Shown piece after piece: positions 34,470 to 38,231 of a stretch of 64,000 nucleotides of DNA. Made by a program: the position numbers and the translations under genes. The stretch comes from Exiguobacterium sp. s122 (GTDB taxonomy: Bacteria; Bacillota; Bacilli; Exiguobacteriales; Exiguobacteriaceae), in contig NZ_JACSMD010000001.1 of NCBI RefSeq assembly GCF_018618475.1, positions 992,001 to 1,056,000 on the forward strand. Direction: 5' to 3'. Numbering within the stretch: position 1 is the first letter of the stretch; each line of letters begins with the position of its first letter. The notes under the pieces are model-generated. The model saw only the letters and a program-made list of their open reading frames with translations. It ran no database searches and was not told the DNA's origin.

Positions 34470-34919
34470 ATGAACAAAGGACAGCGCTTGATTAAAATCC
34501 GTGAGATCGTCACGAATCGCGAAGTCGAAACGCAAGACGAGCTGGTGGATGAATTACATCGTGCCGGCTATCCGGTGACGCAGGCGACGGTATCACGAGA
34601 CATTAAAGAACTTCATCTCGTCAAAGTACCGCTCAATGATGGTCGGTACAAATATAGTCTTCCGGCCGATCAACGCTTCAATCCGTACGGCAAAATGAAA
34701 CGGATCCTCGGGGACAGTTTCGTCTCTGTCGATTCGGCCCAAAACCTGGTTGTCATGAAAGTATTGCCGGGGAATGCGGATGCGATTGGCGTGTTGATTG
34801 ACCATTTATCATGGGATGAATTGATTGGGACGGTTTGCGGGGACGACACGATTTTAATGATCGCCCGCGACGAACGACAAGCGAAACAAATCATCGAACG
34901 ATTACTCGGAATGTTATGA
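34470..34919 (+). CDS. argR: Arginine repressor ArgR/AhrC
   Basis: A 149-residue hexameric regulator, the same length as B. subtilis AhrC. The N-terminal winged helix ([17 protein letters not shown]) binds ARG boxes. The C-terminal core [13 protein letters not shown] and [12 protein letters not shown] binds arginine. ATG 34470 is correctly spaced from GAGGTG; the in-frame GTG at 34458 overlaps that site. An ARG-like box lies 16 kb away upstream of artP. Probably coupled to recN (13-base gap). Confidence 0.95.
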
Positions 34920-36630: not shown

Positions 36631-37362
36631 TTGATTACATTATGCATCGCGGACGACAACCGAGAAATCGTTGATTTGTTGACCCGCCAACTGGAGACCG
36701 AGACCGACTTGAAGGTCGTCGGGACCGCCTTTGACGGCGAGGCGTGCTTAGACGTCGTCAAGACACACCAGCCGGACGTATTGTTACTCGATATCATCAT
36801 GCCGCATTTGGACGGGATTGGCGTATTAGAACGCCTGCAAGATGAATTGGCCGAAGCGAAACCAGAAGTGATCATGCTGAGCGCCTTCGGGAAAGACGAA
36901 GTGACAAAGCAAGCCGTTCAACTCGGCGCTTCTTACTTTTTAGTCAAGCCGTTCAACATCCAGCAGTTGATTGCCAAGATTCGAGAGTTGGCCGCGGGCT
37001 CGAATCGGGAGTTCGAGGCAATGTCGCCTGAAGAACTCGACATTTCTCTGTTGTTACAACAACTCGGGATCTCCCCACGAATCAAAGGATTTAAATACCT
37101 TCGTCAGGCGGTCATTTACGTGCGCGAACGCCAAGAGTTGCTCGGCCTGATTACGAAAGAGCTTTATCCGATGGTCGCCAAAGAGCATGAGACGACGTCA
37201 TCGCGCGTCGAACGCGCCATGCGCCACGCCATCAAGACGGCATGGGATAACGGCATGCGCGACCATGAGATGTTCAATGGACGACCGGAGCGGGAACGGA
37301 GTCCTAAAAACTCAGAATTCATTTCGTATTTCGTGACGTATCAGACGTTGAAGCAACAATGA
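36631..37362 (+). CDS. spo0A: Spo0A-like response regulator
   Basis: A 243-residue response regulator. The receiver has acidic pair Asp8-Asp9, phosphoacceptor Asp54 (LLLDIIMPHLDG), a Ser in place of the usual Thr in the MLSAFG switch block, and LVKPF with the conserved Lys. A shorter linker than B. subtilis leads to a Spo0A-type effector domain, with HETTSSRVERAMRHAIKTAW as recognition helix region. TTG start directly after recN with GAAGGGGTG. It is intact although the neighbouring sporulation genes are gone, so it probably controls stationary-phase, biofilm or metabolic genes. Confidence 0.93.
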   Translation: MITLCIADDNREIVDLLTRQLETETDLKVVGTAFDGEACLDVVKTHQPDVLLLDIIMPHLDGIGVLERLQDELAEAKPEVIMLSAFGKDEVTKQAVQLGASYFLVKPFNIQQLIAKIRELAAGSNREFEAMSPEELDISLLLQQLGISPRIKGFKYLRQAVIYVRERQELLGLITKELYPMVAKEHETTSSRVERAMRHAIKTAWDNGMRDHEMFNGRPERERSPKNSEFISYFVTYQTLKQQ

Positions 37363-37366
37363 GAAG

Positions 37367-37390
37367 CCAGAGACACTCTGGTTTTTCTTT
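37367..37390 (+). terminator. Terminator after spo0A
   Basis: Stem CCAGAG / CTCTGG with a three-base loop and a T-rich tail, five bases after the spo0A stop. Confidence 0.82.
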
Positions 37391-37401
37391 TAGTTTGTGA
37401 A

Positions 37402-37438
37402 AGAAAGCGCTTGCAATTTCGTCTCGGCTTGTTATAAT
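37402..37438 (+). promoter_or_regulatory. Promoter of the large RNA, with overlapping cre-like site
   Basis: TTGCAA (37411-37416) and TATAAT (37433-37438) lie 16 bases apart, with TG one base before the -10, a strong SigA promoter. AGAAAGCGCTTGCA (37402-37415) resembles a CcpA cre site and overlaps the -35 box, which would place this transcript under carbon control. Confidence 0.7.
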
Positions 37439-37444
37439 AAGGGT

Positions 37445-37972
37445 GTACCAAGTTACTTGGACGAGCGTCAGATGAACGCTTTCTATTCGGTGCCGGAACC
37501 GGTTAGAGCAAGAAATCATCTCGGACCGCTATCCGTTAATAGCTCAGAGGTGGGAACGACATCTCAAACCGTTTACACGTCCCGACGAGAGGTCGCGACG
37601 TTCGCTCATTCGCGAGATGGTTCTGAATACGATTCGAAGCTAGGGATCGTGTCAGGTAAAACAAATCGTTCAGTTGACCAAAAGGAGTGTTGTCAACCGT
37701 TGAACAGTTTATGGCAAGCGTTCGACTTCACGATGGATGGTTCGACATGACCCGATGAAAAACCGTTAGTAACTCGAATGGGTACGTTTCCGTTCACGCA
37801 AGACGGCAGTTACTAGTTTCTTTCAAACTTCTTCATTAAGAAGACCATTGGTGTATCATGTCACATGTAATGCAGTATGAAATGAGAGGAGATCATCCGT
37901 AGTGATCACAATTCAATATGAATAAAAAGGTTCCGCACTTGAAATGAAGTCAAGTTAGGGAACCTTTTTTTG
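37445..37972 (+). ncRNA. Large structured noncoding RNA candidate (about 530 nt), possibly OLE-like
   Basis: No convincing coding sequence exists here, yet the stretch has its own strong promoter and terminator. Many short inverted repeats nest in order: CCAAG/CTTGG (37448-37460), AGCGT/ACGCT (37464-37480), CGGA/TCCG, GAGGTG/CATCTC, ACGTC-C-CGAC/GTCG-C-GACGT around a GAGAG loop (about 37577-37601), ACGAT/ATCGT, a two-part stem GTTCA-TTGAC/GTCAA-TGAAC, and the longer-range TAGTAACT/AGTTACTA (near 37768 and 37808). Length and position beside the folD-ispA-dxs-recN genes recall OLE RNA of other Firmicutes, though OLE usually lies nearer dxs, next to the gene for its partner protein, which is not here. 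Identity is unproven. Confidence 0.65.
37924..37971. terminator. Strong terminator of the large RNA, also facing yqzF
   Basis: Outer stem AAAAAGGTTCC / GGAACCTTTTT with an inner stem ACTTGA / TCAAGT, then T residues. The A-run on the left also gives a T-run for the converging yqzF transcript. Confidence 0.92.
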
Positions 37973-37985
37973 TGTGTCCGGATGA

Positions 37986-38231
37986 TTAAGAATCAATCGG
38001 CACTTTTCCAGTTTTTTTATCACGGTTGAAGATATAGCCTGCGACGAACCCAATTCCGCCTATGGCGATCAACAATCCGAACGTCCCTTGTAGCATCGAA
38101 GCGGCCGCGACCGAATCAATCCAAGAGAATGGGGCGCTCGTCATCAAGAAGAAACTGTCACGTAACAGCTTGATCCCATACACACCGAGCAGACCGGGGA
38201 CGATTAGGATTAGAAGCGCGATGACTCGCAT
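37986..38231 (-). CDS. yqzF: YqzF-like membrane protein (DUF2627)
   Basis: An 81-residue protein starting MRVIALLILIVPGLLGVYGI, with two hydrophobic helices and a C-terminal basic tail (FNRDKKTGKVPIDS). It matches the DUF2627 family, which in B. subtilis is YqzF beside bkdR. Function unknown. The start is chosen by the AAAAGGAGGAGATTTT ribosome binding site on the minus strand; an earlier in-frame start would run into the bkdR promoter. Divergent from bkdR. Confidence 0.87.
   Translation of the reverse strand: MRVIALLILIVPGLLGVYGIKLLRDSFFLMTSAPFSWIDSVAAASMLQGTFGLLIAIGGIGFVAGYIFNRDKKTGKVPIDS

Follow-up and report, generated by a model that had tools for sequence, protein, structure and literature searches.

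A large structured RNA is very probably encoded in the genome of Exiguobacterium sp. s122 between spo0A and a convergent gene on the opposite strand. The explanation that best accounts for the comparative evidence, to which we assign a probability of roughly 0.55, is a new family of large structured RNA that is confined to the Exiguobacterium family, would act in trans and perhaps has a dual function. To our knowledge, few large structured RNAs exist in the bacterial repertoire, and most of them are without an assigned function. The RNA occurs in all 38 family genomes examined and occupies a fixed place in bacteria that can be cultured, and it is conserved far above the synonymous positions of the neighbouring gene. 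Given so narrow a range, further large RNAs that escape broad searches may well be present in other lineages.

Genomic context and transcription signals

Coordinates refer to the window, by which we mean the whole 64,000-nucleotide stretch of DNA that was analysed. From the end of spo0A (37362) to the end of the minus-strand gene (37986) lies a gap of 623 bases without a recognisable protein gene. The spo0A assignment is based on PF00072 and PF08769 (Pfam), and the minus-strand neighbour, convergent to the RNA gene, is yqzF-like and matches PF11118 (DUF2627). Upstream, the gene order is ispA-dxs-...-recN-spo0A, with all names except spo0A given by eye. A sequence-only reading of this DNA had proposed a large structured RNA gene between spo0A and the yqzF-like gene, and this proposal is borne out by conservation in 38 of 38 genomes and by comparative folding, as described below. 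Positions 37411-37971 constitute a predicted independent transcription unit, whose product would be a structured RNA of about 530 nt, with the following features.

37401-37416, plus strand: cre-like box, a putative CcpA site overlapping the -35 element; two mismatches to the cre consensus, and only suggestive
37411-37438, plus strand: promoter TTGCAA, 16 nt, TATAAT, with extended -10 TGTTATAAT; 10 of 12 consensus matches; recurs in 38 homologues
37445-37975, plus strand: structured RNA of about 530 nt, with its start placed from the promoter and its end from the terminator; in 38 of 38 family genomes, with covariation and conservation
37924-37971, plus strand: intrinsic terminator; perfect 11-bp arms (37924-37934 and 37959-37969), then a T run; conserved in the alignment

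The promoter match noted in the sequence-only reading is not significant by itself, as a strict promoter scan of a shuffled region would be expected to turn up 1.6 sites of this quality. Its credibility comes chiefly from the recurrence of TGNTATAAT and TTGCAN at constant spacing across the 38 aligned homologues. The distance from the -10 box to the terminator is 534-542 nt in the genus of strain s122 and 568-763 nt in the second genus of the family. The strong terminator that had been noted is confirmed by its perfect arms, T run and conservation. A strict terminator scan listed a hairpin directly 3′ of spo0A (37361-37387), and the hairpin at 37924-37971 was absent from its list. The latter is near-symmetric, consisting of an A run, the hairpin and a T run, and the convergent DUF2627 gene has its stop some 15 bases away. 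Given this symmetry and proximity, the terminator may serve both transcripts.

A cre-like box with at most two mismatches to the consensus is found in 29 of 38 homologues, comprising 19 of 19 in the genus of s122 and 10 of 19 in the second genus. The nine genomes that lack one (L020-L028) all belong to the second genus, and catabolite control may have been lost there.

In 37 of the 38 loci, spo0A lies on the same fetched stretch as the RNA. The exception is L038 (E. flavidum), on whose fetched stretch spo0A was not found; here the sequence immediately 5′ of the promoter is a transposase-like insertion (identified by eye), with promoter and cre-like box both retained. In L029-L037 a minus-strand ORF, dihydrofolate reductase-like by eye, sits between spo0A and the RNA, which makes the RNA in these genomes independent of spo0A transcription. 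A DUF2627-like gene (by eye) is the next gene, in convergent orientation, in 11 inspected loci from both genera. In the loci inspected, no gene in the same direction follows the terminator; a cis-acting leader is therefore unlikely, and action in trans is the natural reading.

Distribution and conservation

The 38 genomes fall into two groups of 19, the genus of s122 (s122 included) and a second genus of the same family. Both are Exiguobacterium in the wide sense, with E. alkaliphilum an example of the former and E. sibiricum, E. antarcticum and E. undae examples of the latter. A DNA search of 101 relatives gave near full-length matches in the 19 genomes of the first genus, partial matches in the 19 of the second and trivial matches in two others. 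Two covariance models were built, R1 from 159 positions at the 3′ end (26 of 38 rows) and R2 from 131 positions at the 5′ end (29 of 38 rows), and each finds a single match per family genome. Among 398 genomes of the class, R1 matches 38 of 38 family members and only two of the 360 others, weakly (34.4 and 34.8 bits), and R2 matches 38 of 38 and none of the 360; the tool applies stricter filters in such large searches. An exact core pattern was found in 27 stretches of a genome collection, 24 from Exiguobacterium and one each from Lysinibacillus piscis, Alicyclobacillus hesperidum and a Bdellovibrionales MAG. We take the last three as chance, because R1 gives one match of only 7.1 bits (E 8.1) among them and R2 gives none.

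Mean identity of the RNA is 90.0% in the first genus (171 genome pairs) and 89.9% in the second (153 pairs). For spo0A the corresponding values are 55.9% and 58.2% at third codon positions and 94.2% and 91.0% at first and second positions. Between the genera (342 pairs), the RNA is 59.3% identical, compared with 37.1% for spo0A third positions and 71.1% for first and second positions; L038, whose stretch lacks spo0A, is omitted from all of these figures. Runs of at least seven columns that are invariant in 38 of 38 sequences are TCATCTC, AAAAGGAGTGTTGTC, TTCTTTC, TCTTCATTAAGA, TCATCCG, AAAAGGT and CTTGAAATGA.

In seven of the 19 genomes of the second genus (L020-L024, L027 and L028), the linker that separates the 5′ part from the 3′ part is extended, by up to about 195 nt. 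This group includes E. sibiricum and E. antarcticum, and tandem repeats like AAGACCAAGC are present in the four linkers inspected, those of L021, L022, L027 and L028.

Evidence for a folded RNA

Folding of the single sequence yields only a modest gain over shuffled controls, and the decisive evidence is comparative. The plus strand folds to -160.5 kcal/mol (z -2.92; 1 of 100 shuffles as good), and the minus strand gives z -2.40 with 2 of 100 shuffles as good. The nested perfect inverted repeats that had been described over about 530 bases are only partly borne out, their perfect arms being 8-11 nt long.

For each genus, 28 null alignments were simulated on the genus tree with substitution types and column rates kept, and were then refolded. 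The alifold energy of the first genus is -269.0, against a null mean of -217.7 and a best null of -237.1, and that of the second is -250.8, against -197.8 and -209.7. Pairs with covariation on both sides number 14 in the first genus (null mean 5.7, maximum 12) and 23 in the second (null mean 7.5, maximum 14). The plus strand gives lower energies than the minus strand (-264.3 versus -229.6 in the first genus, -248.4 versus -226.2 in the second), which is in line with transcription from the promoter found. Folding each genus on its own gives 173 and 176 pairs; only 51 of these occupy the same columns in both, but slid controls share at most 8. Compensatory change occurs somewhere among the 38 sequences in 14 of these 51 pairs.

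A second alignment (MAFFT) comprised 31 of the 38 rows, with six rows that have an expanded linker and one duplicate left out. On it 99.8% of cells pair, and 153 cells show both-sided change, compared with 55.8 in shuffled and at most 20 in slid controls; the structure evaluated was derived from the same sequences. Counted by pair, both-sided change reaches 13, which does not exceed the shuffled value (12.4; 272 of 500 shuffles as high), because one difference between the genera makes up most of it, and further pair types are fewer than in shuffles. A one-set covariation test returned 0 significant pairs in the first genus, 1 in the second and 0 in all 38 sequences, and a structure-set test returned 2-3 and 2. 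Per-pair covariation is thus largely not significant, and most compensatory changes are a single fixed difference between the two genera. The sequence-only reading had named an absence of covariation in homologues, or a conserved protein frame through the stretch, as grounds for giving up its proposal. Covariation is present, though weak in per-pair significance, and no protein frame runs through the RNA stretch.

Conserved helices and motifs

The helices and motifs that recur across the family are as follows.

37448-37460, plus strand: 5′ hairpin CCAAG/CTTGG (CCAAA/TTTGG in the second genus); in the independent folds of both genera, with one G-C to A-U compensatory change
37464-37480, plus strand: hairpin around conserved CAGATGA; two pairs compensatory between genera
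37516-37522, plus strand: UCAUCUC, complementary to translation starts; invariant in 38 of 38
37555-37562, plus strand: 5′ arm of long-range helix LR1, pairing with 37687-37694; seven of its eight pairs are canonical in 37-38 of the 38 sequences, and the first one is so in 19
37578-37600, plus strand: hairpin; both-sided change in three pairs on the first alignment and two on the second
37623-37655, plus strand: helix ending in a conserved TTCGAAGC[TA]AGGG-like loop; 7 of 11 pairs with both-sided change in the first genus, 93% of cells canonical
37680-37694, plus strand: SD-like motif 1, AAAAGGAGTGTTGTC; invariant in 38 of 38, its 3′ half being the 3′ arm of LR1
37735-37740, plus strand: long-range helix LR2, GGATG[GA], with 37893-37898; canonical at all six pairs in every one of the 38 sequences, with G-U to A-U as the sole variation
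37818-37824, plus strand: LR3 helix arm TTCTTTC, with 37884-37890; unchanged in all 38 sequences, in each of which the seven pairs are canonical; a candidate mask for the ribosome binding site
37828-37843, plus strand: hairpin CTTCTTCATTAAGAAG (CCTCTTCATTAAGAGG in the second genus); one compensatory pair

LR1, LR2 and LR3 can form in nearly all 38 sequences. These helices vary little and are therefore candidates rather than proven elements, LR2 and LR3 being weakly tested. LR2 was judged on the first alignment only, because its arm is misplaced between the genera in the second. In the second genus, the energy model favours other partners for the ribosome binding site over LR3. The terminator loop contains an invariant AATGA (37938-37947) that is complementary to an invariant TCATT in a hairpin loop (37830-37841), both in 38 of 38 sequences, and the two loops could form a kissing contact.

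A seven-codon ORF at the 3′ end

Directly before the terminator lies a short reading frame with its own ribosome binding site.

37884-37891, plus strand: ribosome binding site preceding the mini-ORF, with GAGAGGAG or GAAAGGAG in 37 genomes and GAGAGGGG in L038
37902-37925, plus strand: 7-codon mini-ORF GTG...TAA, MITIQYE in the window; frame kept in all 38 genomes

The ribosome binding site is located 10-11 bases 5′ of the start codon and coincides with the 3′ arm of LR3, whose canonical pairs could mask it in all 38 sequences. No other frame of at least six codons has, in both genera, a common start and stop together with a ribosome binding site; a column-wise count of 25 of 38 reflects a gap column at the stop. 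The peptide is MITIQYE in 19 of 19 genomes of the first genus, M[KN]P[IT]LYE in 18 of 19 of the second and MKTTLYT in L038. Insertions and deletions flank the ORF, and none falls inside it. Inferred changes at codon positions 1, 2 and 3 number 3, 6 and 12, with eight of the 12 third-position changes at one site, the third base of the Tyr codon. Frame conservation and the distribution of changes suggest, without proof, that the ORF is coding. The sequence-only reading had stated that no frame combines a ribosome binding site with a family-like protein. A 117-aa frame (37397-37750) has no Pfam match, but the 7-codon ORF with its ribosome binding site was overlooked.

Possible function and alternative explanations

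The RNA would most likely act in trans. In the model that we propose tentatively, it would fold into a 5′ domain joined by a variable linker to a 3′ core, and the core would carry the ribosome binding site and the 7-codon ORF, maskable by LR3. Pyrimidine motifs complementary to translation starts (UCAUCUC and CUUCUUCAUU) would base pair with mRNA start regions. The mini-ORF would make this a dual-function RNA or recruit ribosomes to it, and carbon-catabolite control would be possible via the cre-like box.

Six conserved segments were compared with the starts of 63 script-predicted genes in the window, using 200 self-shuffles each and, as a second measure, the difference to inner gene sequence. 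The 12-mer containing UCAUCUC beats 196 of 200 shuffles at these starts, with 4 of 200 as good, and 3 of 200 by the difference measure. The shuffles as good by the two measures number 28 and 12 of 200 for CUUCUUCAUUAAGA, 94 and 13 for the whole UUCUUUC...GAAGAC segment, 33 and 23 for UUCUUUCAA, 70 and 34 for UCAUCCGUAG, and 180 and 188 for SD-like motif 1. Only the UCAUCUC segment is therefore below 5% in both measures, a figure uncorrected for the six segments, and only predicted genes of the window enter this comparison. A target search over the 63 predicted starts gave no clear winner; a start at 34470, inside an ahrC-like ORF, ranks second for SD-like motif 1 and is not significant after counting. 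Two 16S-tail patterns had no match in the draft genome, so that pairing with the anti-SD sequence is presumed. Together with the other evidence on function, the pairing hints tip the balance only mildly from a pure scaffold towards contact with translation initiation.

A more specific form of this idea, which we regard as speculative, is that of a large bacterial RNA of a new class that contains its own ribosome-docking module, namely a strong ribosome binding site maskable by LR3 and a 7-codon ORF at the extreme 3′ end. Unmasking and the arrival of a ribosome would switch the fold or activity of the whole RNA. The maskable ribosome binding site and mini-ORF offer a direct experimental handle.

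The strongest competing possibility, although one that we consider distinctly less probable than the main reading, is a structural or catalytic ribonucleoprotein RNA that serves as a scaffold or particle in the manner of OLE, GOLLD and ROOL, with the SD-like motifs as protein- or ribosome-binding structure. Its size, universal occurrence in the family, single copy, strong conservation and candidate long-range helices all fit such a role, as does the bS21-bound SD/anti-SD mimic of OLE described in passages of PMC12054373. However, there is no OLE or Rfam match at threshold and no partner among those searched (OapA), and a conserved ORF frame is unexpected in a pure scaffold.

That the stretch is an mRNA leader, or a protein gene that has decayed or escaped recognition, is very improbable. 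The 117-aa frame overlaps it, but this frame begins 5′ of the promoter and lacks a Pfam match. Similarly, a TTG/GTG frame of 16-20 codons begins 12 nt past SD-like motif 1 in 19 of 19 genomes of each genus, but its peptides are unrelated between the genera and its stops are one column apart; we rejected these longer frames as genes. A leader is further disfavoured by the convergent next gene in the 11 inspected loci.

Comparison with known RNAs

The preferred reading, a new trans-acting family, agrees with the earlier suggestion of a new class. At the gathering threshold, Rfam 15 gives no family in the window or in six homologous loci. A permissive search of the window stretch returned sub-threshold matches only, the best being archaeal sRNA41 (29.3 of 45 bits), which we take as chance because its long stem aligns to the terminator hairpin. 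The same search of L031, a copy from the second genus, returned two sub-threshold snoRNA hits. No description of this RNA was found in the literature on Exiguobacterium noncoding RNA and transcriptomes or on large RNAs, with subscription papers and large RNA-motif surveys thinly covered. The passages available from PMC4247613 state that ncRNA reads were filtered out, and those from PMC10837837 report sRNAs predicted in bulk.

The sequence-only reading had suggested an OLE-like or orphan OLE RNA, and a diverged OLE RNA that lacks its partner gene would have the right size and the upstream ispA-dxs-...-recN-spo0A order (by eye except spo0A). OLE membership is rejected on model match, partner and site. 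The OLE model (RF01071) matches neither the window nor any of the 38 family genomes, and positions 37300-38050 give nothing even when E values up to 10 are allowed, whereas as a positive control the model matches 69 of 299 class genomes, 68 of them over the cut-off with 452-578 bits. The search for OapA that had been called for found none in the 38 family genomes, and the same query is positive in 8 of 8 OLE-bearing genomes. In L039, the single OLE locus whose neighbours were read, OLE lies between ispA and oapA; the ispA-dxs gap in the window is 111 bases, and the RNA described here occupies a different site. At the sensitivity of these models, the diverged-OLE explanation is already refuted, and we give it almost no weight. 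OapB and OapC are said, in passages of PMC11332333, to be missing from some OLE clades. A further trait of OLE is its membrane-bound ribonucleoprotein particle.

A diverged 6S or tmRNA copy, although universal occurrence, single copy and a good promoter would suit one, is rejected as scarcely credible, since the genome has a 6S gene (77.5 bits) and a tmRNA gene (190.9 bits) at other sites and the RNA described here has no Rfam match. CsrA-sponge RNAs of the CsrB type carry a large excess of GGA motifs. Counts in L001, L014, L031 and L038 are 9, 9, 15 and 13, compared with shuffled means of 9.3, 8.4, 10.1 and 10.7 (sd 2.5-2.8). This candidate was rejected because the window copy has no excess; L031 is about 2 sd above its mean.

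Several known RNAs nevertheless offer instructive comparisons. OLE is a highly structured RNA of about 600 nt (passages of PMC9723947), and its SD/anti-SD mimic is bound by bS21 (passages of PMC12054373). It therefore resembles the Exiguobacterium RNA in size, structure, occurrence in Bacillota and possession of an SD-like sequence, and differs in that those passages mention no mini-ORF and in its model match, OapA partner and site. By analogy, the mimic may be a functional parallel to the SD-like motifs and is not evidence of kinship. GOLLD and ROOL are likewise large, structured RNAs (passages of PMC12286853). The Exiguobacterium RNA is like them in size and structure, and it has no Rfam match and is present as a single copy in all family genomes.

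SR1 of Bacillus subtilis is described in passages of PMC8501984 as a dual-function RNA with a small ORF. The Exiguobacterium RNA shares the small ORF and has no Rfam match. SR1 is about 205 nt long, with a 39-aa ORF and catabolite control. RNAIII of Staphylococcus, about 510 nt long and rich in hairpins, has an intrinsic terminator and a short ORF served by a ribosome binding site of its own, and the Exiguobacterium RNA resembles it in size and in all of these elements. In contrast to RNAIII, it has no Rfam match, and its ORF has only 7 codons and is located at the 3′ end. We know of no arrangement like the proposed docking module in the few families compared. The hallmark of dual-function RNAs such as RNAIII and SR1, a structured RNA that encloses a conserved ORF and its ribosome binding site, is found in 38 of 38 sequences, where the ORF may be translated.
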